IMG/VR virus record: IMGVR_UViG_3300017593_001763
Span: 1 to 37,201 of that record
DNA: 37,201 bases
Origin: a virus
Direction: 5' to 3' (one strand)
Shown here: in pieces, positions 2 through 19,082 of the stretch
How positions within the stretch are numbered: position 1 is the first letter of the stretch
Layout of the letters: the number at the start of each line of letters is the position of its first letter
Program-made: the position numbers and the translations under genes
Notes under the pieces: model-generated
Told to the model about the DNA's origin: nothing
Database searches by the model: none
The model's input: the letters and a program-made list of their open reading frames with translations, nothing else

Positions 2-196
2 CCTCTATTGGCCAGTGCCGTTCAGGTAGCTCCAAGGATAACAGATAGAGAGATTGTAGAAAGGCTGACCAGGCTTGAGGAAGGACAGAAGGCGATTAAT
101 AAACGTATAAAAGAGAAAATCGCCCTTGGTAGAAGAGGCGACAAGAAAGGAAGGATGGGATGCCCCCAAGGGATTAATCAAAAACAGGGGATATAA
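2..196 (+). pseudogene. Fragment of a host protein with 'ITDREIVERLTRLEEGQKA' segment, cut by an IS remnant
   Basis: The open frame enters from outside the window and reads a hydrophobic stretch (PLLASAVQVA, like the end of a signal peptide) followed by APRITDREIVERLTRLEEGQKAINKRI. The second part is a charged, heptad-like segment of a kind I associate with small exported coiled-coil proteins of bacteria; that is recollection, not a search result. After about position 110 the frame becomes unrelated (GRRGDKKGRMGCPQG), and a transposase frame opens in another register at 111. I infer that the gene was broken by the transposon fragment at about 108..111. The function is unknown. Confidence 0.45.
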
Positions 197-434
197 AAGA
201 TACCTAACCGTAGAAAGGGAAGGCATCAAGATTAACCCTAAAAAGGTAGAAGCAGAAAAGAAATACGATGGTAAATATGTAATTACTAGTAACACAGAAC
301 TTAAGGCAGAGGAGATAGCCTTGGCCTATAGGGAGTTATGGAAGATAGAACGAGTATTCAGGGAATTAAAGAGCCATTTTGAGATACAGCCCATTTATCA
401 TTATGTACCAAGAAGGATTAAGGCCCATATCTTT
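111..434 (+). pseudogene. IS-element transposase (DDE, IS4/IS1634-like), middle part; interrupted by the prophage
   Basis: In this frame the protein reads KGLIKNRGYKRYLTV, then FDGK-type KYDGKYVITSNTELKAEEIALAYRELW, then KIERVFRELKSHFEIQPIYHYVPRRIKAHIF. These are the C-terminal half features of IS4/IS1634-type DDE transposases; the E of 'ERVFRELKS' is the likely catalytic glutamate. There is no start codon in register, and the frame opens right after a TAA at 108, so the N-terminal half is already missing. The frame runs into prophage end DNA at 435. Its continuation is at 37030 on the other side of the prophage, in register once the 5-bp duplication is removed. It is a dead IS copy with two lesions. 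Confidence 0.85.
430..434. repeat. Target-site duplication TCTTT (left copy)
   Basis: TCTTT directly precedes the TG that opens the prophage and is repeated at 37025..37029 directly after the terminal CA. Five bases is the target duplication made by phage Mu. Joining 434 to 37030 restores the transposase reading AHIFLCFLA. Confidence 0.92.
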
Positions 435-439
435 TGTTC

Positions 440-483
440 ATTGCAACTTAAAATGAGAAAAATTGCAACTTAAAATGAGAAAA
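440..483. repeat. Two adjacent 22-bp direct repeats at the right end: candidate transposase sites R1 and R2
   Basis: Positions 440..461 and 462..483 are identical 22-mers starting ATTGCAACTT and ending GAGAAAA. Counted from the phage terminus (435 = 1) they occupy bases 6..27 and 28..49, the same positions and unit length as the adjacent R1 and R2 MuA sites of phage Mu. Mu sites also end in a GAAAA-like core. A third, degraded unit beginning ATTGCA follows at 484. The other terminus has a 12/22 match at the same offset (36998..37019), sharing the AGAAA core. Confidence 0.8.
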
Positions 484-490
484 TTGCAGG

Positions 491-507
491 ATAACGTTAG
501 ACAGTTT
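491..507 (+). repeat. Inverted sub-terminal repeat, right-end copy (candidate transposase site R3)
   Basis: ATAACGTTAGACAGTTT lies 57..73 bp from the right terminus. The reverse strand at 36871..36887 (138..154 bp from the left terminus) carries the same 17-mer with one mismatch. A motif in inverted orientation at both ends and outside genes fits an additional transposase-binding site. Confidence 0.6.
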
Positions 508-554
508 CACATGCGTGTCTTTCTTTGTAATTCCGTGTCATTGCGTGTCATCGC

Positions 555-588
555 CTAAAATTGGGTATTGCCTAGCAAGCAATTTTAG
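555..588 (-). terminator. Hairpin downstream of the reverse transcriptase gene
   Basis: CTAAAATTG (555..563) pairs perfectly with CAATTTTAG (580..588), and an inner TTGC/GCAA pair (568..571, 575..578) extends the structure. It lies 12 bp past the RT stop and is the last structure before the phage end, so it may end the long leftward transcript. No run of U follows it, so an intrinsic terminator is not certain. The bases from 508 to 554 hold only short GCGTGTC-like repeats and no gene. Confidence 0.45.
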
Positions 589-599
589 AAATTTATTAC

Positions 600-1631
600 T
601 CACGAAGAGCGTCTTATAAGCACTAACTCATGCAAAATTTCTTTAAGAGTCTTACATCCACAGCAGTGTTTTATGTAGCCAAGAAAGCTCATCAATGAGG
701 CCTTAAACTCCTCAAGCGGAATAAGCTTTCTGGAATATAGCCTTGCAAGCTTCTTTAAACGTCGTCTTGCTCGTTTAACATTGCGTTTCCGAGGCAAAAT
801 ATGTGTAGCCCATGTTCTGTAGCCTGCAAAGTCAACACCTTTATTTGTCGGGGAAATGGAAGTTTTTGGATTAAAGCACAAAAGTAACTTGCAAGCCAGA
901 AATTCTTCTATTCTATACAGCAACTCTCTCAACTCTGGTTTAGCTCTTTCTAAAATTACAAAATCGTCCATATACCGCAGGTAATACTTAATACCCAGGT
1001 CATCTTTAAGATAATGATCTAACTGATCCAAATAAATATTAGCGAACAACTGAGAAGTAAGAGCACCAACAGGAATGCCTTTAACCTCATAGCCACAATC
1101 TTTAATTATTCTTTCGCAAAGCCAAAGTGTATTTTTATCCCTTATTGTCCTGGCTATAATTTGTATAAGTCTATTATGATTTATAGAAGGAAAATATTTT
1201 GATATGTCAGCCTTTAATACATAGACATTTCTCCAATTTCTTTTAGCTCTTCTTAAGAAGGCTTGAAGCCTCAAGGTGGCAGCGTGGATACCTTTTCCTT
1301 TTCTGCAAGCATAACTGTCATAAATAAATTTTCTTTCAAATAAAGGTTCTATAATCTTGACAAGGGCATGGTGAACAACTCTATCTTGAAAGGGAGGCGC
1401 CTGAATAAGCCTCTTTTTGGGGTCGTACACATAAAAGGAGCGAAATTTTCCTGGTCTCCACAGCTTCCATAGGAGTTTGTTTTGTAAATTTATAAGATTT
1501 TCTTCCAGATTATAACTAAAATTTAGCACATCATCTCTATATCGCTTCCCTTTTCTTGCCTCTTTGTACGCCTCAAATAAGTTTTCAAAGCAAGTAATCT
1601 GGCACCAGAGATTATTGAAAGTCTTTGGCAC
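600..1631 (-). CDS. DGR reverse transcriptase
   Basis: RNA-dependent DNA polymerase that copies the template repeat RNA into adenine-mutated cDNA for retrohoming into VR. At 343 aa it has the usual length for DGR RTs. Motif A is LKADISKYFPSI (Asp142), motif B is GALTSQLFANIYL (189..201, the DGR-type GxxxSQ), and the catalytic box is YMDD (220..223, Asp222 and Asp223). A basic thumb region (RKRNVKRARRRLKK, about 281..294) and an FAGY motif (268..271) follow, and there is no maturase or endonuclease domain. The start is GTG at 1631, preceded by AAAAGGAGAAACAA, a good ribosome site. It is the last gene of the prophage and follows TR, as in the Bordetella phage BPP-1 arrangement. Confidence 0.97.
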   Translation of the reverse strand: MPKTFNNLWCQITCFENLFEAYKEARKGKRYRDDVLNFSYNLEENLINLQNKLLWKLWRPGKFRSFYVYDPKKRLIQAPPFQDRVVHHALVKIIEPLFERKFIYDSYACRKGKGIHAATLRLQAFLRRAKRNWRNVYVLKADISKYFPSINHNRLIQIIARTIRDKNTLWLCERIIKDCGYEVKGIPVGALTSQLFANIYLDQLDHYLKDDLGIKYYLRYMDDFVILERAKPELRELLYRIEEFLACKLLLCFNPKTSISPTNKGVDFAGYRTWATHILPRKRNVKRARRRLKKLARLYSRKLIPLEEFKASLMSFLGYIKHCCGCKTLKEILHELVLIRRSS

Positions 1632-1792
1632 TTGTTTCTCCTTTTAAAAAGGTCAGGCCACTTTTGCTATTCTTAGCTACTTGCCGCCTGACCCTGTTTA
1701 TCTTTCCCCATTTGCGAGAGAAGGAACAGGCTCCCTTTTCTCCTTGTGCCGATCAGGCAGCCTTGACTACCCGACATCTGACGAAGGAGGAG
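1632..1792 (-). ncRNA. DGR RNA spacer between TR and RT, with a stem at 1651..1693
   Basis: This 161-bp gap has no gene. In DGRs the RNA that is reverse transcribed includes TR plus the downstream spacer, which Avd and RT recognise and which primes cDNA synthesis. Here GGTCAGGC (1651..1658) pairs perfectly with GCCTGACC (1686..1693) around a 27-base loop, just upstream of the RT ribosome site. The stem is seen in the sequence; its role in cDNA priming or RT translation is inferred. The plus-strand ORFs over this region are not credible genes. Confidence 0.6.
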
Positions 1793-1908
1793 AGCGGGAC
1801 GACAGCCGATGTTGTTGTTCGAGTTCGACCGGTGATTGTTCAGGTTCAACGCAGCCAGTCCAGCATTCGAGCCATTGTTCCAGTTGTCACCGCGTAGAGG
1901 GAAACGCT
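1793..1908 (-). repeat. DGR template repeat (TR)
   Basis: This 116-bp segment is repeated at 2293..2408 with 12 differences. All 12 are T on the plus strand (A on the sense strand) in TR: 1815, 1819, 1824, 1825, 1833, 1837, 1846, 1859, 1866, 1878, 1884 and 1908. TR holds 28 sense adenines, so 12 of 28 differ in VR, against 0 of 88 other bases. The last 17 bases in sense direction (1809..1793) contain no adenine and are GC-rich, matching the expected IMH-type end. In the VR frame TR is rich in AAC/AAT codons. TR begins at the stop codon of avd. Confidence 0.97.
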
Positions 1909-2248
1909 AACGAGCCCGCCCCTGAAATTTAATCCATCCACCAAGCATTTTCCCTATCTCAACCAGCCTGGCGGAAAGCTCTTCGTATTTTTTTGTTGGT
2001 ATAATTTTCAACCCATGTGCAACCCTAATCAATCCGAGCAAAACCTTTATCTCCATATCAAGCTCAAGCAAAATTGGCTTTTTGTTATAGCTGTAATTTG
2101 CCTTAATTATTAGCCTTAAACCCTTCCAGATTGAATTTCTAATTTCACTTCCAAGTGTAAACCGTTCGCTTTTCGGGATATGCCTGAGCATTATATAGGC
2201 ATATCCCGTCATATCTTCCCACTTTTGATATATCTTTAGCTTTTTCAT
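1907..2248 (-). CDS. avd: DGR accessory variability determinant (Avd), four-helix bundle
   Basis: A 113-aa basic, all-helical protein (MKKLKIYQKWEDMTGYAYIM...) of the bAvd / 23S-rRNA-intervening-sequence-like four-helix fold. Avd forms a pentameric barrel that binds the RT and the template RNA and is required for mutagenic retrohoming. Family signs are the aromatic KWEDMTGYAY start, KSERFTLGSEIR at about 26..37, a helix with LLELDMEIKVLLGLIRVAH at about 60..78, and a helix with ELSARLVEIGKMLGGWIK near the C-terminus. It lies between the variable gene and TR, and its TAG stop (1907..1909) overlaps the TR edge. Identification rests on fold-like pattern plus context and is strong. Confidence 0.93.
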   Translation of the reverse strand: MKKLKIYQKWEDMTGYAYIMLRHIPKSERFTLGSEIRNSIWKGLRLIIKANYSYNKKPILLELDMEIKVLLGLIRVAHGLKIIPTKKYEELSARLVEIGKMLGGWIKFQGRAR

Positions 2249-2280
2249 TTCAGATTATCAGTTCATCAAATATCAGATCA
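2249..2280 (-). repeat. Short direct repeats after the variable gene
   Basis: The gap between avd and the VR gene carries imperfect 11-bp direct repeats (CAGATTATCAG / CAGATCATCAG on the plus strand, the second running past 2280). BPP-1 has a cruciform after VR that helps retrohoming. No good inverted repeat is visible here, so this element may lack it or use another structure. Confidence 0.4.
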
Positions 2281-3369
2281 TCAGAGAATAAAAGCGGGAC
2301 GACAGCCGATGTTGCTGTGCGAGGCCGACCGGGGATGGTTCAGGTCCAACGCAGCCAGACCAGCACTCGAGCCATTGCTCCAGGTGTCACCGCGTAGAGG
2401 GAAACGCCCACCATAGTTTCTAACCCATATAGCGCCTTTTGTGCTTTCAAAAATAGAAAGCACAGAAGTGGATGTCCCATCATATTGTTTTGGAGCTATA
2501 CAAAGCTGTTTTAAAAGCTGGGGTGGATCCCAACTATCTTTTATATTTAGTGTCTTCCAAACAGAATTATAATTGTAATCATAGTAACCATCATCTCCCG
2601 CAGGACCTGCATAGTTAGTTATGCTATCGCTTAGAATTGGTTCTCCCAAGTCTGAGCTTCCACTTCCATCACCAGCTGTAGGGCTATCAAAATATGCATT
2701 TTGAGCTGTCCAATTGCTTTCATCAAGATTAAAATCGTTAGTAGCTGGAACATAGATTCTGCCATCTACAAGCTTCATAAGATGCATCCATTCCCAGATA
2801 TTCCCCACCAAATCAGATATTCCTACAGAAGTATTGTCATGTCTCCAGGAAGCAGGGCCTGAACCTGTGTATATCCTGGAAGTCCCGCTTGAGCTGCCAG
2901 GAGTACCACCATCTACCCTGGTTCCAGCCTCATATTTAGCCTCATGAGACCTACCATAGTCTGTATTACCCCTGGGCTCAAATCCATTTTTTAGACACCA
3001 CAGCATTACAGCAGCCCATTCATGGACTGTCATAAGATGCCAACCAGGCCCTTTCGCTTCACAATAGGACTTTGCCTGGTCATAAGTCATATATACAGAA
3101 GGATCTACTCCAGGAAGAGAGCAAGCCCTTCCATCTTTCACAATGGCCTGAAATTGTCCGATAAATATCTCGCTTTTCTCTTGTCCGTTTACTATGAACG
3201 CTGGGTGTACTTCGCTACCTAGATCTGGATCTATGTCTTCTAAATTAAACTTAGGAATCCTGACCATATAGGAAGGATAACCTTTATCATCATAAAGAAC
3301 TGTAACTCTACCTCCTGTTGCTGCCTCTACGGAGGCCCGTAGATCATCTTTTACAAATATAATTGCCAT
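2281..3369 (-). CDS. DGR target protein: C-type-lectin-fold (FGE-sulfatase-like) variable receptor-binding protein
   Basis: A 362-aa protein whose C-terminal half resembles the formylglycine-generating-enzyme/SUMF1 branch of the C-type lectin fold: YDQAKSYCEAKGPGWHLMTVHEW (about 96..118), GSGPASWRHDNTSVGISDLVGNIWEW, and the terminal GGRFPLRGDTW...GCRPAFIL. The same fold carries the variable residues in TvpA- and Mtd-type DGR proteins. VR covers residues 321..359, ending in the invariant GCRPA strand. The N-terminal 75 residues (MAIIFVKDDLRASV...) probably attach it to the fibre. A strong ribosome site (AAGGAGGG) precedes the ATG. The enzyme activity of FGE is not expected; the fold is used as a ligand-binding scaffold. 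As the last tail gene it is the probable host-recognition tip. Confidence 0.93.
   Translation of the reverse strand: MAIIFVKDDLRASVEAATGGRVTVLYDDKGYPSYMVRIPKFNLEDIDPDLGSEVHPAFIVNGQEKSEIFIGQFQAIVKDGRACSLPGVDPSVYMTYDQAKSYCEAKGPGWHLMTVHEWAAVMLWCLKNGFEPRGNTDYGRSHEAKYEAGTRVDGGTPGSSSGTSRIYTGSGPASWRHDNTSVGISDLVGNIWEWMHLMKLVDGRIYVPATNDFNLDESNWTAQNAYFDSPTAGDGSGSSDLGEPILSDSITNYAGPAGDDGYYDYNYNSVWKTLNIKDSWDPPQLLKQLCIAPKQYDGTSTSVLSIFESTKGAIWVRNYGGRFPLRGDTWSNGSSAGLAALDLNHPRSASHSNIGCRPAFIL
2293..2408 (-). repeat. DGR variable region (VR)
   Basis: This is the 116-bp receiving copy of TR, inside the last part of the variable protein gene (residues 321..359). Relative to TR the sense changes are six A to G, five A to C and one A to T. 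Altered residues are T329, S331, S335, D342, H345, P346, A349, H351 and S352; Asn is the TR residue at all but P346, where it is His. One change (Gly337) is silent. The invariant 22-bp end at 2293..2314 is the likely IMH. Confidence 0.97.
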
Positions 3370-3392
3370 CTTTTCCCTCCTTATCGGTTATT

Positions 3393-3713
3393 TTAACAAA
3401 GCCAAAGTATAAGCGTAATCTGATCTGAACTTAAAGGAATCTCTCTTCTCTCTACAATCTCATTTCCCTGATCATCTTTTTCTCCTGTTTTTACTTCCTC
3501 ATATCTCTTAGGTGGAATTATAATGCTTGCAACATAATTGTCTCCTTTTCCTAAAGCCAGACCGCTTGGTGTAGAAAATACATTAAGCCTTATTTCGCTA
3601 TCTGCCTGAAGTTCTCGACAATCTAAAGAAATAGCTCCATTGTCAAATTCTACGACACAATCACTTATTGAAAAATCTACAAAAGGCCCTTCTCCCATTG
3701 TCTTTATACGCAT
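3393..3713 (-). CDS. Small tail-tip-associated protein, unknown
   Basis: A 106-aa acidic protein (MRIKTMGEGPFVDFSISDCVVEF...) with mostly beta-strand-like segments and no motif I recognise. It lies between the tail fibre and the DGR variable protein in the same operon (11- and 23-bp gaps). GGGGAAAA precedes the start. By position it may be a fibre chaperone or an adaptor that holds the variable protein on the fibre; this is inference only. Confidence 0.65.
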   Translation of the reverse strand: MRIKTMGEGPFVDFSISDCVVEFDNGAISLDCRELQADSEIRLNVFSTPSGLALGKGDNYVASIIIPPKRYEEVKTGEKDDQGNEIVERREIPLSSDQITLILWLC

Positions 3714-3724
3714 TTTTCCCCTCC

Positions 3725-4642
3725 TTAAGTTGTATTTTGTATCACCAAATAATTCACTTTCAGGCTATCAGCCACACAACTAACAACAACATTGAACCCA
3801 TTCCCTGCTCTACTCTCTACAATCAGGGCATCTTCTGATGGTTTTGGTCCTTTATAATCAAGTATTTCTAGTCTTAGAGAATAATCTTTCTCAGACAACG
3901 GATACTGCAAAGATATATATTTGCTGGCTGCAGATTGCAGTAAAGTAGGCCAGTATGGTTCTATCCTGCGAATATCAGTAATCTGCACGTCATTTAGATA
4001 GGGGTCTGTAGATTCATTATTGTTTGCTGGGACATCAAGCTGTGCAAGGGGCAGTCCCCACTCTGGAATATCTTCATTAAGCTGAGTGCAATCTATTCGT
4101 ATGTTGTTGTCTTCATCAATCCATAAATAGGCATAAGAAATTGCAGGCACATCTGTATTATTGGACGGGACAGAAGCGGTATTTTCCATATCTTTAATTA
4201 AGCACTGCCGTCCAAACATAAAAAATTTCCCTGAAGAAACATTTAAGTTCCTGGTTGCTGTAGTGCTTTTTGTAACATTCAGTCCAGAAATGACACCTCT
4301 ATTAGGTATAAAAATTTCTCCTTTCTGGATACGCACCTGAAGAGTTTTTTCTATCTCTCTATTAGCAAGTCCAGCACTGCTAAGAGCTTTCTGTATCGAT
4401 GCTAGGATCATGTTTTGTATATCAGGATCAAGTCCCTCTACATTTTGCTCTATTACGTCCAATCTCGCATCCAGAGAAGGCTCCTCCCCTTGTGCCGCCT
4501 GCAGCTCATTTTCAATGCTAGAAGTCCTTGAGTCCAGGTTTTCAAAATTTTCATCTATCTCCTGATACCTACTGTTCCACAGCTCAGGAACAGCATCAGC
4601 ATTGTCTGGAATCCGTGTTATACTTAAATGTGGTATAGCCAT
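3725..4642 (-). CDS. Tail fibre protein
   Basis: A 305-aa protein. The N-terminal part (IPDNADAVPELWNSRYQEIDENFENLDSR) is typical of phage tail fibre/needle proteins that begin with an attachment peptide. It leads into a coiled coil of about 35..95 (SSIENELQAAQ..., RLDVIEQNVEGL). The middle and C-terminal parts are beta-rich (RGVISGLNVTKSTTATRNLNVSSGKFFMFGRQ; VPANNNESTDPYLNDVQITDIRRI). GAGGTGAGC precedes the start. It follows the collar-fibre gene and is the probable shaft on which the variable tip sits. Family assignment rests on composition and position. Confidence 0.75.
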   Translation of the reverse strand: MAIPHLSITRIPDNADAVPELWNSRYQEIDENFENLDSRTSSIENELQAAQGEEPSLDARLDVIEQNVEGLDPDIQNMILASIQKALSSAGLANREIEKTLQVRIQKGEIFIPNRGVISGLNVTKSTTATRNLNVSSGKFFMFGRQCLIKDMENTASVPSNNTDVPAISYAYLWIDEDNNIRIDCTQLNEDIPEWGLPLAQLDVPANNNESTDPYLNDVQITDIRRIEPYWPTLLQSAASKYISLQYPLSEKDYSLRLEILDYKGPKPSEDALIVESRAGNGFNVVVSCVADSLKVNYLVIQNTT

Positions 4643-4652
4643 AGCTCACCTC

Positions 4653-5033
4653 CTAAAATTTAAGTTGTATCTCAATCTCATACTCTTCATCTGCTTCTTT
4701 TATTTTTGGTGCAAAATTTTTGAAACCAAGCAGATTTCCCTCTTCATCTAAAAGTCCTGCTTCAGAAATAGAGACACCAACGAGCTCACCTTTTGCAACT
4801 CTTCCCCTGCCAGTTACAGAGAACTCATCTTCCTGAAATACCTCTACTAGCTCTTTTTTAAGCAGCCGGTGCCGAAGATCTGTTTGAGATGCATCAGGAG
4901 GAATAGGTTCTCCATCTGTATTATGCCCTCCATCCCCAAAAGCCATATACTTTAACTTTGGGAGCGGAGTCCCGTCCATAAAGTGTTTTGCAAGCCTCTT
5001 TCTAAAATCATAAGTAGTTACTGCATTTGCCAT
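4653..5033 (-). CDS. Tail-collar fibre protein (gpH N-terminal-like)
   Basis: A 126-aa protein starting MANAVTTYDFRKRLAKHFMDGTPLPKLKYMAFGDGGHN. This matches the N-terminal collar domain of P2 gpH-type tail fibres (AFGDGG followed by a fibre-attachment beta domain ending in the ISEAGLLDEEGNLLGFKNFAPKIK strand pair). In P2 this domain is fused to the long fibre; here it is a stand-alone gene followed by a separate fibre gene. Start and upstream stop overlap by one base, so translation is coupled to the tail protein I gene. Confidence 0.85.
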   Translation of the reverse strand: MANAVTTYDFRKRLAKHFMDGTPLPKLKYMAFGDGGHNTDGEPIPPDASQTDLRHRLLKKELVEVFQEDEFSVTGRGRVAKGELVGVSISEAGLLDEEGNLLGFKNFAPKIKEADEEYEIEIQLKF

Positions 5034-6496
5034 TAAGCTGCCCTCCTTGCAAATTTAACCTCCAAGCCCGGACCGTTATGCCCAACCACCCATGTACCAT
5101 CTATTTTTCTTGATACATCTCCAACTCCCCATGTTCCATCCAACTTTGTATAATGCCAGCCCACTTTTCTCGCACCAAGAATTGCCTGACTATTAAGTAT
5201 CCAGCTTCCATCAAGCTTTTTGAAAGCTCCAAGCTGCCAGCTGCCATTTACCTTATATGCCCATCTGCTCCCAAGCTTCGGATAGGCTCCAAGTTTTGTG
5301 GGAAGGCCAAAATGTACAAACAGATTTAATTTTAGATCAGATTCAGCTATTACCCCTCTTTTTTTTCTTACCTTCCATGTACCATCTACTTTTCTACCAA
5401 ACATTTCACGCCCAACTTTCCAACCTCCATCAATTCTTCTCCCATCAAGAGCAGGATATTGGCCTAATTTTTCAGGACTAGCAGGATAATCAATCTCAAC
5501 CTTTTGTCTATTTGTTGCCTTAGGTAAAGGTCTGGCATATATTGGAAAACTCTTTGTTATCTTTTTAGATAGCAAAATAAGAATACCATTTTCCCCAAGC
5601 TTCCAGCCACCATCCAGATGAAGCCGCTTTGAGCCAAGCTTTAAAGTAAACCATTTTTCTCCTATAGGAACTTTCTTTAAAACATGGGTTCTACAAAAAA
5701 TGTTACACTGTTTTAAAGCAACGTCTGCATATATAGGTGTTTCCCCACCAACTTTCCAACTTCCATCAACTTTCAAAGAACCATCCAGGGAATATAGCTC
5801 TCCACCAGTTCCCAGACTCCAGCTTCCATCAAGTCTCTTTGTGCACCACGGATAAATCTGGCTAATCTGCTTCTTTAATGAAAGAAAATAAGCAGGAATA
5901 GGAATATCCTCTATTTCTAAGCCCAAAAAGTAAATATACACAGGCCAGGAACGTGTATTTTTTGCTATATCTACTATCTCCTTGACTAATTTACTCCAAT
6001 CTGGCCTCTCCATAGAGGCTAAATTTAGCCTTATGCAAAATTTAGCCCACTTAGACATGTAAGAGAGGCCTGTTACATTGTAATAAGAGACAAGCTTTTT
6101 TGTCCCATCTAAGCACCATGATCCATCCAGCCTTGCCCCACCCAGCTCCTCATATTTCTTTCTTGCCTGCCAATATTCTATTATCTCTGCTTCTACTGCA
6201 AACCATTCCAGTGCTTTTTTTATAGCCCACGGCGTTCCCTTGTACCTATGCCACTTTATACTATTTTTAATGAGTGTTTTTTTTGTTTCTAGGGGAAAAT
6301 CAGGCTTCCAAAAATCCACATGAAACTGCCAGGCCAGTAAAGGCAAGACATCAGAAGGGACATTGCCAATAAGATAAACAAGCAATATATCCAGCTCGTT
6401 CTCAAATGAAAGCGCCTGATCAATAGCTTCACAAAGGGCCTGTATATTCTGGTCATTCTGTAAATTTGGCGGTAATAATTCTTTTGTTTTAGCCAT
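5033..6496 (-). CDS. P2 gpI-like tail protein with long DGSW-repeat C-terminus
   Basis: A 487-aa protein. Residues 1..about 195 match the P2 gpI family of baseplate wedge proteins (LLPPNLQNDQNIQALCEAID..., FHVDFW, KTLIKNSIKWHRYKGTPWAIKKALEWFAV). P2 gpI itself is only about 176 aa. The remainder contains about ten copies of an x-[LVI]-[DN]-G-[SGT]-W-x-[LV]-G motif (for example LDGSWSLG, VDGSWKVG, LDGGWKLG, IDGGWKVG, VNGSWQLG, LDGTWGVG, IDGTWVVG) spaced irregularly. This tail may form a beta-repeat surface that carries fibres. The stop overlaps the J-like gene start region by 8 bp. Confidence 0.88.
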   Translation of the reverse strand: MAKTKELLPPNLQNDQNIQALCEAIDQALSFENELDILLVYLIGNVPSDVLPLLAWQFHVDFWKPDFPLETKKTLIKNSIKWHRYKGTPWAIKKALEWFAVEAEIIEYWQARKKYEELGGARLDGSWCLDGTKKLVSYYNVTGLSYMSKWAKFCIRLNLASMERPDWSKLVKEIVDIAKNTRSWPVYIYFLGLEIEDIPIPAYFLSLKKQISQIYPWCTKRLDGSWSLGTGGELYSLDGSLKVDGSWKVGGETPIYADVALKQCNIFCRTHVLKKVPIGEKWFTLKLGSKRLHLDGGWKLGENGILILLSKKITKSFPIYARPLPKATNRQKVEIDYPASPEKLGQYPALDGRRIDGGWKVGREMFGRKVDGTWKVRKKRGVIAESDLKLNLFVHFGLPTKLGAYPKLGSRWAYKVNGSWQLGAFKKLDGSWILNSQAILGARKVGWHYTKLDGTWGVGDVSRKIDGTWVVGHNGPGLEVKFARRAA

Positions 6497-7616
6497 CTAC
6501 ACTCCCCGCAATTACTATAGAAATACCGCTACATTTAGCTACTTGATTTTGTGCCACCTCTATATAGCCTGGCTGGTTTACAACCACTCGATAAACGCCC
6601 ACTATTTTTTGTAAGCTCCCTATAATCTGCTCTGGCACGATGTCTAAACCTAGCTTTTCACTGTGTGTCTGGGTATATTGAATAAGCGTCTCTTCGGCCT
6701 GCTGCTGAATAACATCAGAAAGCGCACTAGCGGATTTATAAATATAAAGGCTGACATCAATACTATAACTAACCTCTTCAGGCACCTCCACAATTACCTG
6801 ATCAGTCAAAGGCCTAACTTTCTCATCGTTTAAAGTTTTAGCTACTAGATCAAGCATATCCTGGTCTGGAATTTCTCCATTTTTAAGTAACGGTACTACT
6901 TTGACCGTTCCCGGCTCTGGGCTCCATACAGCCGCATCTACAATATCTTGATGTGCTGTTTTCGCCCAATACTCATAAGCCCCACGGCTTCCAGCATTAC
7001 TAAATATTTCAGGAGCAAGTTGAATGCGTTCACGTAAATGATCATCGCTTTCGGTATTATTCCCCCCATAGGTCATAGTGATATTTTCTACGTTCTGCAC
7101 ATAAGGTAATGGATCAACAAGCTGATTTATTTCTCCTGCCGTATAACTATTACCAACTTCACCTGCTTCTGTGCATTCAGCGGCCACATCAATATAGGTA
7201 CTACCGGCTGAGGCATTTGCGTCTTCTTTTGTTACAAAAATGACTTTATTATCTTTACTTTGTACCCGTGTACCAGCAGGGATTAAAAGTTCTGAGGGTA
7301 ATGCTTCAGAAAAACTAAATCGTAAGGTAGTAATAGCCGGCGTAGCAGATAGCCTCTCAACATCTAATAAAGCGCCTAAGTGATCTAAAATTTCACCACG
7401 AGCATACGCTAAAAGGTTCTGTTTTGCCGTTTCCTGGATTAAAATGCGTAGAATATTCTCACGATAGGCAAAAATATCTAAAAGTAGCCTCTCAATTTGC
7501 CCTTTAGATAAAGTTATTCCAGCAGACTGCTCATAGATATCTATGAGCTCTTTAACCTGCTTTACCCAATCAATAGATACAAACTGAGGTTCGGGCAAAC
7601 TATTAACATCCAACAT
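6489..7616 (-). CDS. Baseplate J-like protein
   Basis: A 375-aa protein of the P2 gpJ/Mu gp47 baseplate J family, a wedge component of the contractile-tail baseplate. Features seen: EQSAGITLSKGQIERLLLDIFAYRENILR (about 29..57), the RGEILDHLGALLDVERL segment, the GTRVQSKDNKVIFVTKEDA strand region, NQLVDPLPYVQNVENITMTYGG, and DDHLRERIQLAPEIFSNAGSRGAYEYWAKTAH (about 187..218). Length is usual for the family. No clear ribosome site precedes the ATG (GCTAATGTTGCAGC), which is odd in this prophage; translation may depend on coupling with the W gene 26 bp upstream. Confidence 0.93.
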   Translation of the reverse strand: MLDVNSLPEPQFVSIDWVKQVKELIDIYEQSAGITLSKGQIERLLLDIFAYRENILRILIQETAKQNLLAYARGEILDHLGALLDVERLSATPAITTLRFSFSEALPSELLIPAGTRVQSKDNKVIFVTKEDANASAGSTYIDVAAECTEAGEVGNSYTAGEINQLVDPLPYVQNVENITMTYGGNNTESDDHLRERIQLAPEIFSNAGSRGAYEYWAKTAHQDIVDAAVWSPEPGTVKVVPLLKNGEIPDQDMLDLVAKTLNDEKVRPLTDQVIVEVPEEVSYSIDVSLYIYKSASALSDVIQQQAEETLIQYTQTHSEKLGLDIVPEQIIGSLQKIVGVYRVVVNQPGYIEVAQNQVAKCSGISIVIAGSVDG

Positions 7617-7642
7617 GCTGCAACATTAGCATGATTGGACGG

Positions 7643-7993
7643 CTACCTTGCAAAATCTGCTAAAAACTCAAGAACAATTTCTTGCTCAGTTTGGCTATCT
7701 GTGATAATGCCGGTTATTTTAAAGATAAGCTTTCCTTCTGATGTGGCCTCTAATAAGATCACTTTGGTGGGATAAAATCGGTTTGAATTGGCTTTTAAGG
7801 CCCGATAAGTCTCGGCAATAATCAAGTGCCTGACTAGTTCTATTGGTTTGTCTAGATATTCATAAATACGACTGCCAAATTCTGGCCGATGAGGAATAGA
7901 CCCTAGAGGCGTAGAAAGGATAAGATAAATCTCTTGCTTTATGTCCTCTAGCCCCTTTATTGTTTCTCCTATTGTGCCTAACTTAAGCTGCAT
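7643..7993 (-). CDS. Baseplate assembly protein W (gp25-like)
   Basis: A 116-aa protein of the GPW/gp25 family, part of the inner baseplate wedge. The family core is LGTIGETIKGLEDIKQEIYLILSTPLGSIPHRPEFGSRIYEYLDKPI, with the usual 'RPEFGS' box at about 37..42, followed by the IAETYRALKAN helix. It lies between V and J as in P2. Its last codons (LADFAR) contain one copy of the dispersed motif TGCAAAATCTGCTAAA, discussed under findings. Confidence 0.93.
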   Translation of the reverse strand: MQLKLGTIGETIKGLEDIKQEIYLILSTPLGSIPHRPEFGSRIYEYLDKPIELVRHLIIAETYRALKANSNRFYPTKVILLEATSEGKLIFKITGIITDSQTEQEIVLEFLADFAR

Positions 7994-7998
7994 AATTA

Positions 7999-8469
7999 TT
8001 AATGTGAATGATGATTAGTGTTCCCACCTTCATCAATTATTGCACCCGTTGCGTGAATATTACCTGTTATATTAATATCACCTTGAATTTTCACCCCTTG
8101 CGCTGCAATAATATTCACTTCTCCTACACAATTTATATACAGTCTGTGTGCTATCCGATCATAGTCAATCACCGTACCATCTTCAAACTCTATGTGCCGT
8201 TTATTCTGTTCTATTACAGGCACCTTATCTGCCTCACTATAGATTGCCCCTAGCACAAACCCCTGTTCAAGTCCCTGTCCCAAAAAAAGACAGACCACAT
8301 GCTCACCTACATCCGGCATCCAATAGTCTTTGTCTTTGAGAGTTTTCCGCATGATTACAGGCAACTCATAAGATACCGTATCATCCACATCAACCATCTG
8401 TACACGCACAGTGGCTTTATCCGGATAGGTCTGTGTTACTATTCCAACTCTGACCAGTTCTCTTAGCAT
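7999..8469 (-). CDS. Baseplate spike protein V with HxH tip
   Basis: A 156-aa P2 gpV/Mu gp45-like spike. The N-terminal OB-fold reads LVRVGIVTQTYPDKATVRVQMVD...LPVIMRKTLKDKDYWMPDVGEHVVCLFLG (about 5..65). It is followed by a triple-strand beta-helix segment (RLYINCVGEVNIIAAQGVKIQGDINITGNIHATGA). The protein ends NTNHHSH, and the His-x-His apex is the iron-binding tip known in P2 gpV-type membrane-piercing spikes. It overlaps the hub gene D by 7 bp. Confidence 0.94.
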   Translation of the reverse strand: MLRELVRVGIVTQTYPDKATVRVQMVDVDDTVSYELPVIMRKTLKDKDYWMPDVGEHVVCLFLGQGLEQGFVLGAIYSEADKVPVIEQNKRHIEFEDGTVIDYDRIAHRLYINCVGEVNIIAAQGVKIQGDINITGNIHATGAIIDEGGNTNHHSH

Positions 8470-9461
8470 CTGCGCATCTTAATTGTTGTTATATAACCCT
8501 CATTTTTATTCAGGTTATGTCTTGCCTCTTCTATAAGATATTCTGCTGAAAACATTCCAAAACCAAACAGCTTTACTTTCGCTCCTGCTACCAAAAAAGG
8601 ATCTCCTGTCAAGGTCAGCTCTGCTATTGTTTGCAGCCTGTTTGCCCGTCTAAGCTCTGCTCGGGCTCGCTCAATGGCCTGCTGTAAATTTTCCACACGC
8701 TCTGAAATCTTTAAATAATCACCTGTAACTACATCAATAGGTTCCTCTTCTATATAACTTAATTCCTGTTTTTTAACCGGGTCCCAATACTTTACCATAC
8801 AGCCCTTATAAATTTTATGCGTTTTATCAAAAAATGAATAGCTCTTAAGCCCTGATTTTCCCCGTTCAATCGTGGCTACAATCTGGTATTTCTCAAGCTC
8901 TTCCTTTCTAACAAAGATAAACTTGCCGTGATCTATCTTGGTATAATAACCATACTTATCAGCCAATTCCCGCACAAAGTTTAGATCACTCTTCTCTTTT
9001 TGATCCAGCCGCTTAAACTCAATTTCAGGTCCAACCTTTACCTGAGCATCAAGGCCATGCTCACTGGCAATTTGGAGAACAATGCCAGATAATTTTATAC
9101 TTTCCCAAGCTCTTGTTTTAAGCTGACGCAAACCCTTCTTAATAAAGGCCGAAAGCCCCTTTACCCGCATTATATCAGGTGGGCCGCTGGATTCTACTTC
9201 ATCTATCTCAAAAATACCTGCTTTAAGCCACTTTTCTTCATCTTCTTTTATTCCAATTTTAACTTCTAGCTGGTCTCCCTTTTGCGGATACCAGGCGCTT
9301 TTCCATTTATCGTTTCTGTCCTCAAAAATAAGTTCAATTTCATCACTTTTGCCATGCAGATAATCTGTATAGTTAAGGCTAATAAGATATGGCACAACAT
9401 CTCTACTTACGTCCTTCCCGGTCCAGATAATTTGATAAAGCGGTTCTCTCAGCGCTTCCAC
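8463..9461 (-). CDS. Tail hub protein D (late control D / gp27-like)
   Basis: A 332-aa P2 gpD family protein, the central baseplate hub that holds the spike. The N-terminus is YQIIWTGKDVSRDVVPYLISLNYTDYLHGKSDEIELIFED (about 7..46), followed by the WYPQKGDQLEVKIG strand pair and, in the middle, KGLRQLKTRAWESIKLSGIVLQIASEHGL. DLNFVRELADKYGYYTKIDHGKFIF (about 160..184) and the terminal FSAEYLIEEARHNLNKNEGYITTIKMRR are also family-typical. Length agrees with the family. It overlaps X by 13 bp. Confidence 0.93.
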   Translation of the reverse strand: MEALREPLYQIIWTGKDVSRDVVPYLISLNYTDYLHGKSDEIELIFEDRNDKWKSAWYPQKGDQLEVKIGIKEDEEKWLKAGIFEIDEVESSGPPDIMRVKGLSAFIKKGLRQLKTRAWESIKLSGIVLQIASEHGLDAQVKVGPEIEFKRLDQKEKSDLNFVRELADKYGYYTKIDHGKFIFVRKEELEKYQIVATIERGKSGLKSYSFFDKTHKIYKGCMVKYWDPVKKQELSYIEEEPIDVVTGDYLKISERVENLQQAIERARAELRRANRLQTIAELTLTGDPFLVAGAKVKLFGFGMFSAEYLIEEARHNLNKNEGYITTIKMRRC

Positions 9462-9670
9462 GGTGGTAACTCCTCTGGATAGGTAGGTTCAATATCTAGA
9501 TCAGGGATGTTCAGTACAATGCCAGCCGGCAAAATAAATGCCCTTTTAACCTCATCAGACAAATCCGAATTGGCCCTTATAATCTCCTTATAATAATCTG
9601 GGTGGCCATAAAATTTATAACTGATCTGATCCCATCTATCTCCCTGAATCGTTCGATAAATCCGGGGCAT
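9449..9670 (-). CDS. Tail protein X (LysM-like)
   Basis: A 73-aa P2 gpX-type protein with the LysM-like reading YRTIQGDRWDQISYKFYGHPDYYKEIIRANSDL and ILPAGIVLNIPDL. It is a small hub-associated tail protein, usual length about 70 aa. It sits between U and D, with its start one base from the U stop and 13 bp overlap with D. Confidence 0.92.
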   Translation of the reverse strand: MPRIYRTIQGDRWDQISYKFYGHPDYYKEIIRANSDLSDEVKRAFILPAGIVLNIPDLDIEPTYPEELPPWKR

Positions 9671-10054
9671 TTAATAATACTCCTTAAGAGTTACTTCAAA
9701 CTCAACTACCCTGAGCTTCCCTTTGGCACTTACATTTTTCCAAGTTTCCTGTATTTTCTCAATCACAAACTCCCCCAATGTTTCATTACCAATCACCAGC
9801 ACTAACGGTTCTTTTTTATCTGCTTCTGCAATCAATTTGTCTATTTCTGTCTTTGGATCACAAAACCAATCAAAAAATTTGCCTTTGAAAGTAATTTTAT
9901 CAAGCTGTCTACCCAGCCACTGCAGGCGTGATTTGTCTTTGGCAATCTCATGCTCGGCGTATTTCCAGATATGCTCACGTGACAATTCAGTGACTGAACG
10001 TGCATAATCACTGGATATCTGGAACGCGATACTGCCTAAAGCCCCCCATTGCAT
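9671..10054 (-). CDS. Tail protein U
   Basis: A 127-aa P2 gpU-type protein: MQWGALGSIAFQISSDYARSVTELSREHIWKYAEHEIAKDKSRLQWLGRQLDKITFKGKF, with LGEFVIEKIQETWKNVSAKGKLRVVEFEVTLKEY near the end. This family is a short tail-completion protein with a LysM-associated role near the tube end. The start overlaps the tape-measure stop by one base. Confidence 0.92.
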   Translation of the reverse strand: MQWGALGSIAFQISSDYARSVTELSREHIWKYAEHEIAKDKSRLQWLGRQLDKITFKGKFFDWFCDPKTEIDKLIAEADKKEPLVLVIGNETLGEFVIEKIQETWKNVSAKGKLRVVEFEVTLKEYY

Positions 10055-12900
10055 TACCAGCTCACCCTTTCTTTATTGTAGAAATACCGCTCAATGATTC
10101 GTTTGATAGCCTCTTCTGTTACTGTGCCAATTTGTTTAGCAATCTCCTTTTCCTCTTTTCCTTCTATATTAACATGTTGAGTAAAGGAAATATGAATTGA
10201 TGCACCCGCTGAAGCTAAGGCAGGCCTGGGAGAAATAGGTGCAGTAATTGCCTTCACTGCTGGCATGGCAAGTTTCTCAAAATCAAACCGTACAGGTGCC
10301 GTGATAGCAGCCAGGCTCCTGGGCAGAGTAAGGCGCTCTTTAATAAAACGCACTCTGGCCGTAATGTCTGCCAATCGCCTGGGAATATCAAACCTTTCTT
10401 TAATAAACCTAATCGGTGCTGTAATGGCTGAAAGTGTTTTAGGAAGGCTTAAATGCTCCTTCACAAATTTAACCGGTGCAGTAATTGCCTTCACTGCTGG
10501 CATGGCAAGGTTTTTAAAAAATTGCACCGGTGCGCTAAAGGCACTGATTTTCTGTAACAGATGCTTTATACGCATCAAAAGTGGGTCCGGCTTTATGGCC
10601 TCGGCAATCGTTTGAATGATCCGCACCCGATGCAGATCAGCCAGGGGCCCCTCTTTGGCAGGGCTAAAAGGCAGCAGGTTACGTATCTTATGCGCCACCC
10701 ATCTCATGGCATGCACCGGGGCCATGATATACGATTTCATTCCATGCCATAAGGTCAATATAATCTTTCTGCCTGCCTCAGTTAAATCAATACTCTTTGC
10801 AAAATTTACCAGTGCCCTGATGGCATGATAGGCCATCCCCAAAGGCGTCAGGTTAAACGCAATATAAAGACTTTTAGCAAAGGCCTTCTTTAAAACCTCC
10901 CAATGCGCCTTCAGTTTAGAAATACCCCAGCTAATTAGTTTGATGGGAATCAGCACAGGGCATAAACCATATACCAACATCTGCCCGGCAATTTTACCCA
11001 CTTGTCCTAAGGTTTTCAGCGCCCCGGCACTGGCATGAATAGGTCTAAATAACCAGGCAATAGCACTACCAATGGCTTTAACCAAACGCCAGAGAAGAAG
11101 CAATGGCGACAGCACAACTTTAAAAAGCGGTGCCAATGGTGCAAGGGCGTTTTTGATGCCCGCAAACACACCCACAAAGAAGGCCTTAATTGGCCCCCAG
11201 AATTTATAAATCAAAATGGCCGCCCCGGCCAATGCCAATCCAATCCAGCCAATAGGAGATGTCAGCAAGGAAATGGCAAAGGCCCGCATTGCCAGGATAG
11301 CACTTTTTATCCCATTTATCATATTAAGCGCAAATGCCCTACTAAGGCCAATGATACCGCCCTGGGCAGCAATTGTAGCCCGAAGTGATGACCACTGGGC
11401 AAGCGTCCAGGCCTTTATGGCCGTGACTCCCTCCCAAAAACGATATTTCAATCTTAAAAGCTGAAAATCAAGAAAGTTTAATATTCCTCCTCTATACTTT
11501 ATGGCCGCATAAAATCGCCCTAAAACACTCCCCGCCTCAAAGACACGACCCGAAAACCCGATAAAGGCCTTTCCGATTTTGGCCAGTGCCTGCAAGCCAT
11601 AGCCTGAGAGCATGTAAAAACCGCCTATCAAAGATAAAAGCGGTCCTAAAACACCCAAAACCCCAGCCGTTATTGCAAAGAAAGTAACCCCAATTTTGGT
11701 AAGAAATTTATGCGATTTAGCAAACTTGTCTATAGCATTGGTTAAACGCACAACAAAACTAACCCCTTTATTGATCAGGGGCAAAATATAAGTTGCTAAC
11801 TGCATTTTTACGGCAATAAGGTTGTTCTGCATAATCTGTAACTGCATAGCCGCCGATGACTCAAAAAGGGCCTGGGCCTTTGCTGCCGCACCAGCAGAGT
11901 TTGCCACCATCTGCTGTGCTTTTTTAAGTGCTTCTATTTTATTAGAAAGTAGAATAACTGTCCTTAAACCCTCCTCTCCAAAAGCCTTTTGAAAAGCTTG
12001 TTGCTCTTCGTTAGAAAGCCTAGTTAAATCACCATAAACTTGCCTGATGTTCTCAAGTGTCTTTATAAAGTCAAGACTGCCATCAGCGGTTCTGGCTATT
12101 TGAAATCCTAGTTTTTCTGATCCTCTAATCAACTGTCTTAAACTTGCCGCCAAAGCCGTGCCAGCCATAGAACCCTGAAGCCCAGAGGTATTTAACATAC
12201 CCACGGCTGTGTTTAACTGCTCAATGCTCATTCTAAATTGTAAGGCCGATGGAATAGCATATTTTAGGCCTTCTGCTAATTGGCTAAGATCCTTAATTTG
12301 GAAAAGCTGCTGAGTTTTAGTGATGACATCACCTATTCGCTGCATTTCTCTTTGTGCATCAGCCGCTTTATTGCCCATGTTGTTGTAAACCATTGCCACA
12401 AGATTAGCCGCCTCAATGTGATCCCCCATCGTTGCTGTTGCTACAGTCATAGCTGTTTTTGTTGCTTCAATAGCAGCCTTTTCATTTAAACCCGCCGAAA
12501 GCATCATATATGTGGCGTTAATAAAATCCTGAGCTGTATCCTTATGTGCTTTAGACCAATTTATACCAGCCTGCTGCACCCGTTTTGTCGCTTCAGTAAT
12601 TTGCTGCATATTATACCCGGTAGCCTGAAACATCGTAGCCACTTTAGCAATCGCATTATCCGCTTCTAATGCTGGCCCTACTAGACCACGCAAGGCAGAA
12701 TTCATCTGAGTTGATGCCCCACTGACCAATGCTCCCGCTAACGAAATACGTTCACCGGTAGCCCTGAGTTGCTCTCCCATCTGTGCTGCTTTTTGCACTG
12801 CATTAGTGAATCGCTTCACCTGTCTGGTCATTTCAGTCATTGGTCGGGTGAGGCGGTCATAGGCCGTAAAAAGCAGAGCTACCTTGAAAACATCTTCCAT
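10054..12900 (-). CDS. Tail tape measure protein
   Basis: A 948-aa protein that sets tail length and helps DNA ejection. The N-terminal 400 residues match the TP901-type tape-measure core (TRQVKRFTNAVQKAAQMGEQLRATGERISLAGALVSG; ATMFQATGYNMQQITEATKRVQQAG; AMTVATATMGDHIEAANLVAMVYNNMG). Hydrophobic stretches follow at about 405..435 (FFAITAGVLGVLGPLLSLIG) and 545..580. The C-terminus (about 790..900) has repeats of about 27 aa around xITAPV(R/K)FxKExLxLPxxL; at DNA level 10238..10272 and 10475..10509 are identical. The start has GGAAGGA upstream. By P2 order it follows E/E' and precedes U. Confidence 0.94.
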   Translation of the reverse strand: MEDVFKVALLFTAYDRLTRPMTEMTRQVKRFTNAVQKAAQMGEQLRATGERISLAGALVSGASTQMNSALRGLVGPALEADNAIAKVATMFQATGYNMQQITEATKRVQQAGINWSKAHKDTAQDFINATYMMLSAGLNEKAAIEATKTAMTVATATMGDHIEAANLVAMVYNNMGNKAADAQREMQRIGDVITKTQQLFQIKDLSQLAEGLKYAIPSALQFRMSIEQLNTAVGMLNTSGLQGSMAGTALAASLRQLIRGSEKLGFQIARTADGSLDFIKTLENIRQVYGDLTRLSNEEQQAFQKAFGEEGLRTVILLSNKIEALKKAQQMVANSAGAAAKAQALFESSAAMQLQIMQNNLIAVKMQLATYILPLINKGVSFVVRLTNAIDKFAKSHKFLTKIGVTFFAITAGVLGVLGPLLSLIGGFYMLSGYGLQALAKIGKAFIGFSGRVFEAGSVLGRFYAAIKYRGGILNFLDFQLLRLKYRFWEGVTAIKAWTLAQWSSLRATIAAQGGIIGLSRAFALNMINGIKSAILAMRAFAISLLTSPIGWIGLALAGAAILIYKFWGPIKAFFVGVFAGIKNALAPLAPLFKVVLSPLLLLWRLVKAIGSAIAWLFRPIHASAGALKTLGQVGKIAGQMLVYGLCPVLIPIKLISWGISKLKAHWEVLKKAFAKSLYIAFNLTPLGMAYHAIRALVNFAKSIDLTEAGRKIILTLWHGMKSYIMAPVHAMRWVAHKIRNLLPFSPAKEGPLADLHRVRIIQTIAEAIKPDPLLMRIKHLLQKISAFSAPVQFFKNLAMPAVKAITAPVKFVKEHLSLPKTLSAITAPIRFIKERFDIPRRLADITARVRFIKERLTLPRSLAAITAPVRFDFEKLAMPAVKAITAPISPRPALASAGASIHISFTQHVNIEGKEEKEIAKQIGTVTEEAIKRIIERYFYNKERVSW

Positions 12901-12933
12901 TTGTGCTATCCTTCCTTAAAGGAGGCTTTAATA

Positions 12934-13137
12934 ATGTGGCATTTTTTAAGTGTTTTCTTCATCTTCTTTGGTATTGGTGCAGTTTTAGGTCTTGTCTATG
13001 CCCTTATGCGTGGACTACCCTTTATCTTTCGTAGCTTTAAAATCCTTTATCAGGCATTTCAAGAGGGCTGGCGGTCTGGTGTTGTTCAGTCTCAACTAAC
13101 TCATTTACCTTCTGTGCCCAAAAGAAAAATTCACTAA
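12934..13137 (+). CDS. Small membrane protein on the opposite strand inside the tail operon (candidate)
   Basis: ATG at 12934 is preceded by TTAAAGGAGGC, a strong ribosome site with 8-base spacing. The 67-aa product (MWHFLSVFFIFFGIGAVLGL...) has one long hydrophobic helix (about 4..27), then a basic amphipathic part (RGLPFIFRSFKILYQAFQEGWRSG) and a basic end (VPKRKIH). Minus-strand frames over 12901..13036 are full of stops, so nothing else explains this gap. The last 100 bp are antisense to the E' extension of the tail chaperone. Possible roles are superinfection exclusion or another lysogenic function; none is shown. A shadow ORF is not excluded. Confidence 0.45.
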   Translation: MWHFLSVFFIFFGIGAVLGLVYALMRGLPFIFRSFKILYQAFQEGWRSGVVQSQLTHLPSVPKRKIH

Positions 13138-13446
13138 TATCCATTTCCATTACTTCTCTATATCCCCAGCCGGTGTAACGGCTGATGGTAATGGCCGTCC
13201 AAGCATAGTCGGTAAAGGGACACCAGACATGACCTCATTTTGCAGTGTCATATAATCAGATAAGTCTAACTCTAAAATATCTTCATAGGCCTTTTTCTGG
13301 CCATCAAAAACACATAAAACTGACATCAAAGCCGCAATCACTTCTTCTGGCTCACGCGCCATTTTCTGTGCCGTGATCAGGTCACGGCCTTTACCATTCT
13401 TTATTTTAACCTTTTTACCAGATACAGGCAGCACAATCTCTCTCAT
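13037..13446 (-). CDS. Tail assembly chaperone, -1 frameshift product (gpE+E'-like)
   Basis: Ribosomes that slip -1 at C CCT TTA (13213..13219) leave the 98-aa frame and continue to a stop at 13037, giving a protein of about 136 aa. The extension reads TDYAWTAITISRYTGWGYREVMEMDISEFFFWAQKVNELVETEQ, a compact domain ending in a tryptophan-containing helix like P2 E' and other tail-chaperone extensions. The -1 frame has a TGA a few codons upstream of the slip site, so the overlap window is short and includes the heptamer. Frameshifting at this locus is conserved in tailed phages, where the long form binds the tape measure. Confidence 0.85.
13150..13446 (-). CDS. Tail assembly chaperone, short form (P2 gpE / Mu gp41-like)
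   Basis: A 98-aa protein: MREIVLPVSGKKVKIKNGKGRDLITAQKMAREPEEVIAALMSVLCVFDGQKKAYEDILELDLSDYMTLQNEVM. This matches the Mu gp41/P2 gpE family of tail chaperones, which keep the tape measure soluble during tail assembly. It lies between the tube and the tape measure as expected. The zero-frame stop TAA at 13150 is passed by the frameshifted form listed separately. Confidence 0.93.
   Translation of the reverse strand: MREIVLPVSGKKVKIKNGKGRDLITAQKMAREPEEVIAALMSVLCVFDGQKKAYEDILELDLSDYMTLQNEVMSGVPLPTMLGRPLPSAVTPAGDIEK
13213..13219 (-). promoter_or_regulatory. -1 ribosomal slippery heptamer C CCT TTA
   Basis: In the zero frame the codons are GTC CCT TTA CCG, so the heptamer fits X XXY YYZ exactly. 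A slip here enters the open E' frame. No strong downstream hairpin was evident by eye. Confidence 0.75.
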
Positions 13447-13449
13447 CTA

Positions 13450-13971
13450 TTATCCTCCTAAAGTTGATTTTATCTCTGTCAGGATGTCCTGGCCTTTGAC
13501 TTTATAGATGTAATTAAACTGATCAATCTCCACTATCTCCTGTCCATCAATCTCAAGCTTAAAATAATGTGCTGCATAAGAGGCCTCAGATTCCACATCA
13601 GATGCTTGTTTAAAATCACTCAGTTTGATCTTTTTAAAAAAAGCCCTTATAGTCACTTTGACTGGATAGGTCTTCATCTCCCCTGTGCTAGGGTCATATT
13701 TCTGAATAGCTGCCCTGGCATCAAGAAGTGGCGCCTTTTGTGGATTATAAAGCACATTCGCTGCATCAGCCGTCATGGACTTAAATTTGATTGTGCCTTC
13801 CATTTTGTCCGTATGCCCGATTACCGGCACTTCCACCGTACCCGAAACGCCAAAAGCAGCATAGTCTACCATTTTCTGTGCAATTTCAGGTAGACTTACC
13901 TCTGCCTTCCCTAGCCAGTTGGCCCCATCCACATAAATATTGGCATCGTTTAAAACGTTTGGAACCTCCAT
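13450..13971 (-). CDS. Major tail tube protein (P2 FII-like)
   Basis: A 173-aa protein, the same size as P2 FII (172 aa). It begins MEVPNVLNDANIYVDGANWLGKAEVSLPEIAQKMVDYAAFGVSGTVEVPVIGHTDKMEGTIKFKSM and ends with FKLEIDGQEIVEIDQFNYIYKVKGQDILTEIKSTLGG, both family-typical. It polymerises inside the sheath. It is preceded by AGGAGG and follows the sheath gene with a small ORF between. Confidence 0.94.
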   Translation of the reverse strand: MEVPNVLNDANIYVDGANWLGKAEVSLPEIAQKMVDYAAFGVSGTVEVPVIGHTDKMEGTIKFKSMTADAANVLYNPQKAPLLDARAAIQKYDPSTGEMKTYPVKVTIRAFFKKIKLSDFKQASDVESEASYAAHYFKLEIDGQEIVEIDQFNYIYKVKGQDILTEIKSTLGG

Positions 13972-13972
13972 T

Positions 13973-14086
13973 TTATCCTCCTATTTTAAAGCTTATTTCT
14001 GTATTAAGATTGTAAACCCTCTCAAACTTCTTTAATGCCTCAAATGAACAACCGCATTTACACACAAACTTTATCCTTTCAAACAC
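13973..14086 (-). CDS. Tiny Cys-rich ORF between sheath and tube genes (candidate)
   Basis: GTG at 14086 overlaps the TAG of the sheath gene by one base and has GGGGGTGAG just upstream. The 37-aa product reads MFERIKFVCKCGCSFEALKK and on to a Gly-Gly end, with a CKCGC cluster but no second cysteine pair. It fills the only space between the two genes, and its stop lies one base before the tube start codon. It recalls one half of the Mu Com zinc-finger, but similarity is too short to call. Confidence 0.4.
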   Translation of the reverse strand: MFERIKFVCKCGCSFEALKKFERVYNLNTEISFKIGG

Positions 14087-15483: not shown

Positions 15484-15500
15484 TGTTTATGCCTCCTTAC

Positions 15501-19069: not shown

Positions 19070-19082
19070 GGGTTATCCCTCC

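Follow-up and report, generated by a model that had tools for sequence, protein, structure and literature searches.

This analysis concerns a diversity-generating retroelement (DGR) in a 37,201-nucleotide stretch of viral DNA (IMG/VR record IMGVR_UViG_3300017593_001763, positions 1 to 37,201), here called the window. The element comprises a reverse transcriptase (RT) gene, avd, a template repeat (TR) and a target gene that contains a variable repeat (VR) (Table 1). As the initial annotation had described, RT, Avd, TR and target are intact and lie in the order target-avd-TR-RT; the three proteins match Pfam and PHROGs families, and Avd also matches NCBIfam. The RT motifs YMDD and GALTSQ, the latter being the DGR-type SQ motif, are invariant or almost so in an alignment of 12 sequences, and a profile built on 12 relatives hits 8UB7, a reverse transcriptase of solved structure (1.5e-88).

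TR and VR are both 115 bp long, with an offset of exactly 500 bp in a repeat comparison of the window. They differ at 11 of the 27 sense adenines of TR and at none of its 88 other positions (hypergeometric p = 1.8e-8). The coordinates, the offset and the adenine-only pattern of the initial annotation stand, with one refinement to its 116 bp and 12 mismatches. Its last base pair (1908/2408) is mismatched, falls within the avd stop codon and has no homology beyond it, so the safe repeat is 115 bp with 11 mismatches. The changes fall mainly in AAY codons and turn asparagine and histidine into threonine, serine, aspartate, histidine, proline or alanine. VR sits within the 3' end of the target coding sequence and stops 9 nt upstream of the target stop codon; no second VR was found in the 37-kb window. 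The earlier claim that one or more rewritings of VR have followed its last homogenisation with TR is supported. Given the absence of differences at the 88 non-adenine positions, little time appears to have passed since the last homing.

Table 1. Features of the DGR and of its carrier in the window
Feature	Position	Strand	Evidence or remarks
Reverse transcriptase (343 aa, GTG start)	600..1631	(-)	RVT_1 6.6e-24; phrog_1423 1.3e-133; YMDD and GALTSQ
TR-to-RT spacer RNA, Rfam RT-14 (RF02921)	1649..1794	(-)	61.7 bits against gathering threshold 48.1; full model 1-144
Template repeat (TR)	1793..1907	(-)	starts at avd stop codon; repeat comparison
avd, accessory variability determinant (113 aa)	1907..2248	(-)	Pfam bAvd 4e-30; NCBIfam DivGenRetAVD 1.8e-32, above cut-off
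Five-unit phased YTG array, immediately 3' of VR	2250..2287	(-)	2282-2284, 2274-2276, 2267-2269, 2259-2261, 2251-2253
Target gene, C-type-lectin/FGE-like variable protein (362 aa)	2281..3369	(-)	FGE-sulfatase 3.7e-05; phrog_2889 4.3e-134
Variable repeat (VR)	2293..2407	(-)	115 bp; differs from TR only at 11 TR adenines
Left part of interrupted IS1634-family transposase gene (host side)	126..434	(+)	NCBIfam IS1634 2.5e-28
Complete Mu-like prophage, 36,590 bp	435..37024	(.)	ends TG...CA; target-site duplication; Mu-type portal, MuF and transposase
Right part of IS1634-family transposase gene	37025..37201	(+)	begins with duplicated TCTTT

The target protein is a putative, and probable, tail receptor-binding protein. 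Its AlphaFold (AF2) model, built from 12 relatives, has a mean pLDDT of 63.5 and is low in the VR part. With that part at low confidence, the model matches TaqVP (PDB 5VF4) over its whole length (Foldseek, E 9.4e-28, 42% identity). Because the target resembles this protein of a Thermus aquaticus prophage, and because transposable phages with DGRs are known, we assign the window DGR itself to a known kind. What looks new is the mark that follows VR at the target site.

The spacer between TR and RT matches the small RNA family RT-14, whose Rfam title does not mention DGRs. Among 16 loci scanned with Rfam, the same family occupies the TR-RT spacer in six (L017, L034, L045, L054, L062, L089; such labels denote loci in our set of relatives). 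Since RT-14 coincides with this spacer in every case seen, the clade probably uses it as the spacer RNA of its DGRs, just as BPP-1 has Phage_DGR at the corresponding place.

The array after the variable repeat

A hairpin with a GRNA loop is frequent in phage DGRs and is not among the three defining DGR components. In phage DGR targets the hairpin is GC-rich, lies 4-34 bp past VR and has been proposed as a conserved requirement; in BPP-1 it is needed for efficient homing, which falls more than 1000-fold upon its loss (PMC3240598). Later work found it important, yet not strictly required (PMC12875486). No stem was found in the 75 nt after the window VR, and the fold z-score of the post-VR DNA is +0.49, compared with -1.9 to -3.6 in L034, L007 and BPP-1.

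What follows the window VR is a phased array of five YTG units at steps of 8, 7, 8 and 8 nt, the first overlapping the target stop codon and the last abutting the avd start codon. Neither strand of the 37 kb has another chain of five or more YTG at 7- or 8-nt steps, and 1 of 5000 shuffles produced one. The initial annotation had mentioned neither the missing hairpin nor the array.

The array is widespread among relatives of this DGR. We compared the 45 nt after VR in 84 dereplicated loci with dinucleotide shuffles and with the 45 nt after TR. AATCTG occurs 83 times after VR, against 5.6 +/- 2.1 times in shuffled sequence and once after TR. Successive YTG are 7 or 8 nt apart in 207 of 263 cases (about 22 expected), and chains of at least three follow VR in 58 of the 84 loci (2.6 expected); such chains follow other genes of those loci in about 1 of 387 stretches. 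The commonest length in relatives is four to five units, and the autocorrelation of TG after VR peaks at lags 7, 8, 14 and 15. Periodicity persists in the 33 loci without a YTG chain, with identities of 0.364 at lag 7 and 0.312 at lag 8 (shuffled, 0.27), and some of these have other units such as TCATG. Other DGR lineages have post-VR repeats of similar period built on TCATG, ATCTT, ACCTTT or TTATTTG, as in L049, L051, L053, L056, L059, L076; L140; and L182, L206.

Samples drawn in other ways yield the same pattern. Among loci drawn with Avd from two groups of bacterial genomes, a few of which were already in the RT-drawn set, 13 of 22 have a chain of at least three. When viral contigs were searched for the DNA pattern without the use of any protein, 13 matches emerged, 8 immediately upstream of an avd, 6 with TR/VR confirmed. 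Direct repeats after VR are not mentioned in the open-licence literature searched, and an earlier description in subscription papers is possible.

Could such repeats be a functionless by-product of replication slippage, or of repeated cDNA integration at the end of VR? Near-perfect tandem units in some loci (AATCTGTAATCTG) speak for this. Counter to this, in most loci, the window included, the units vary outside TG and the 7-8-nt step is kept. Moreover, the array is conserved between loci whose RTs are as little as 37-45% identical, it is unchanged between hairpinless loci with target genes 5-25% different, and it is preserved within coding sequence between the phage FP_Mushu and a relative. 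We therefore regard a by-product as very unlikely.

Association with the variable repeat

The array travels with VR. In phage nd12, two VRs lie 12 kb apart in different genes, and each is followed by an array in CTT/CTG form. In FP_Mushu the target is placed after RT and holds the array inside its coding sequence. At four loci (L044, L048, L064, L096), VR, array and hairpin stay together with avd 373-962 nt distant. The sequence after TR lacks the array.

These arrangements bear on the possibility that the DGR is as described and that the array acts as RNA within the target-avd transcript, controlling avd translation or transcription termination, and is unrelated to homing. The position of the avd start, about 25-190 nt from VR in most loci and directly beside the last unit in the window, would suit such a role. 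An avd leader is disfavoured by nd12, where one of the two arrays follows a VR whose gene lies 12 kb away from the DGR, and by FP_Mushu, where the array is within coding sequence after RT. It also fits poorly with the loci at which array and hairpin remain with VR where other genes separate VR from avd. In our view this explanation is unlikely.

The array also outlasts the hairpin. By simple stem rules, with four borderline cases decided by eye, the hairpin is missing in about 20 of the 84 loci, and 16 of those keep a chain of at least three. Among loci with intact TR/VR, the hairpin switches between present and absent no fewer than 10 times along well-supported branches of the RT tree. One hairpinless group is L125/L126/L128/L135 (L120 is the same sequence as L125), in which VRs differ at 10-15 of 22 adenine sites and 0-2 of 85 others, and TRs at 0-1 of 107. 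The flanking target and RT sequences differ by about 5-25%, and the first 59 nt past VR are unchanged. This adenine-site rewriting shows that homing takes place there with the array and in spite of the missing hairpin.

Activity and homing

Nearly all RT relatives show the adenine-only TR/VR pattern and the same gene order. In L089/L090/L093 the TRs are identical and the VRs differ at 12-16 adenine sites and nowhere else. The VRs of the phages VHML and VP58.5 differ at 11 adenine sites and no others. Those of ACA1, ACA2 and proACA1-A differ at 11-19 adenine sites and 1-2 others, and the VR variation of the ACA phages has been reported by their authors (PMC10612066). By these comparisons, DGRs of the clade are clearly active. 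In proACA1-A (L033), the RT of the prophage copy is frameshifted, as also noted in PMC10612066, and its VR differs from those of its siblings.

Other comparisons are invariant. VRs are identical within the near-identical groups L003/L018, L011/L013/L022 and L016/L026, which are probably the same organisms. Four near-identical prophage copies in genome G593 (L209-L212) share identical TR and VR and offer no evidence of activity. Their target is arranged as in FP_Mushu, with the array retained inside the coding sequence.

A second assembly, IMGVR_UViG_3300017593_001681, is identical to the window over 9,982 bp (346-10327), including VR and the junction with the insertion sequence (IS). It was the sole find in scans of viral contigs with the target protein and with the exact TR. 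The two assemblies may stem from the same population; the insertion that they share reflects either a fixed prophage or the same sample. VRs of relatives vary at adenine sites over identical TRs, and the window's second copy is invariant. The "live" tropism switching of the initial annotation thus stays a suggestion for this copy.

One explanation is that the window DGR is a relic, which after a single writing of VR lost its hairpin and ceased to home. Arguing for this case, the window has no hairpin, BPP-1 homing falls more than 1000-fold without one (PMC3240598) and VR is the same in both assemblies. Counter to this, the three DGR genes are intact with their catalytic motifs kept, the spacer RNA scores above the Rfam threshold, and the clean non-adenine positions point to a recent homing event. 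The repeated rewriting in the hairpinless group, and the many switches of hairpin presence on the RT tree, further argue that a DGR without a hairpin need not be defunct. A relic is possible and, we think, rather unlikely.

The window holds a complete DGR of a Mu-like prophage, and we consider it likely that this DGR homes into VR via the YTG array and not via a hairpin. As far as the cDNA, the process is that of the BPP-1 model: an RT-Avd complex would reverse-transcribe the TR transcript, which includes the structured RT-14-type spacer, and make errors at adenines. The mutated cDNA would replace VR and so change some ten residues at the C-type-lectin tip of the target. In the absence of the usual hairpin, retrohoming probably relies on the five-unit array with 7-8-nt spacing. 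This array, absent from TR, would single out VR as the recipient, like the 21-bp directional part of the initiation of mutagenic homing (IMH) sequence of BPP-1. Five bases distinguish that direction-setting segment from TR (PMC3240598), and these VR-specific bases give rise to a CTG that precedes a TTG by 7 nt. By analogy, the array would be an extended form of this segment that marks VR.

A broader proposal is that the phased array of four to five YTG units serves a large clade of DGRs as a hitherto undescribed cis-acting recognition element, sufficient without the hairpin and possibly read by a ring-shaped Avd or RT-Avd complex, one contact per unit. We put this forward tentatively, as plausible and somewhat short of probable. 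The regular step of the array would suit such a ring, and Avd is a candidate reader. Bordetella Avd is pentameric, and structure entry 4DWL contains five Avd chains.

Alternatively, the spacer RNA might base-pair with the array and guide the cDNA to VR. CAGA, the complement of TCTG, does occur in 66 of 84 spacers, often as (G)YCAGAAG and mostly 10-13 nt after TR. The longest complement of a spacer averages 5.99 nt to its own array and 5.95 nt to those of other loci, and lineages with a TCATG unit retain CCAGAAG. Such RNA-DNA pairing, unsupported by locus-specific complementarity, seems to us highly improbable.

Several observations weigh against homing by way of the array. VR is identical in the only second assembly, and activity of this copy is presumed. 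A YTG chain of three is lacking in 22 of the 64 hairpin-bearing loci. The array is weak in BPP-1 and absent from the hankyphage, whose DGR is active by experiment (PMC12135933), so it is not universal, and we treat it as a feature of a clade and not of all DGRs. We infer the activity of the window copy, receptor binding by its target and the function of the array.

Carrier prophage and known systems

The initial annotation had placed the DGR at the fibre end of a Mu/P2 mosaic prophage that breaks an IS; the prophage is Mu-like, and its insertion in the IS can now be mapped to the nucleotide. The 5-bp target duplication TCTTT lies at 430-434 and 37025-37029, and joining the flanks gives a single transposase reading frame and restores the empty site. 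A 24-bp inverted site with 21 matches lies near both prophage ends. The head genes are of Mu type (Portal_Mu 4.9e-85, Phage_Mu_F 2.1e-11), and the DDE transposase (Mu-transpos_C 3.8e-07) neighbours a gene with AAA_22 and TniB matches, its partner ATPase. The baseplate is of P2/Mu type, with Baseplate_J and Tail_P2_I, and the repressor is CI-type. The C-terminal part of the Tail_P2_I protein (5033-6496, (-)) is long and contains numerous LDGSWKLG-like repeats. The IS flank had no match in four genomes that hold RT relatives; the portal protein had matches of 24-32% in one phylum and none in another phylum searched.

Several known systems resemble this one. The DGR of Thermus aquaticus Y51MC23, which encodes TaqVP (PDB 5VF4; PMC6328139, PMC4605624), shares the target-avd-TR-RT order and a C-type-lectin target 42% identical to that of the window. 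Mu-like genes are present in the prophage region that carries it (PMC4605624); that prophage, from a thermophile, is a different phage from the window's. The DGR of the Bordetella phage BPP-1 (PMC3240598; Rfam RF03022) also shares the order, the adenine-only TR/VR and a spacer RNA between TR and RT, the latter from another Rfam family. Its VR is followed at 4 nt by a GRNA hairpin and by no full array, whereas the window has five units and no hairpin.

RTs 41-47% identical to that of the window occur in the phages BalMu-1 of Bacillus, VHML and VP58.5 of Vibrio, and ACA1 and ACA2 of Pseudoalteromonas. All have FGE-like targets, which in VHML, VP58.5 and ACA1/2 are 43-47% identical to the window's. 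Unlike the window, these phages combine CTG- or TTG-type repeats after VR with a hairpin that has a GATA or GGTA loop. ACA1 and ACA2 differ from each other mainly in VR. Transposable phages with a DGR, as in the window, include the Mu-like hankyphage (Bacteroides phage p00; PMC12135933), whose DGR has been shown to be active and lacks the array, and FP_Mushu, in which the array sits inside a Hoc-like target after RT.

The step from cDNA to VR was called incompletely understood in a 2026 study of BPP-1 (PMC12875486). A compact, conserved mark that is linked to VR and outlasts the hairpin would make the choice of VR over TR by the cDNA directly testable. The array could also act as a short tag that directs DGR mutagenesis to chosen genes of laboratory strains. 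It may tell the DGR machinery where to write.

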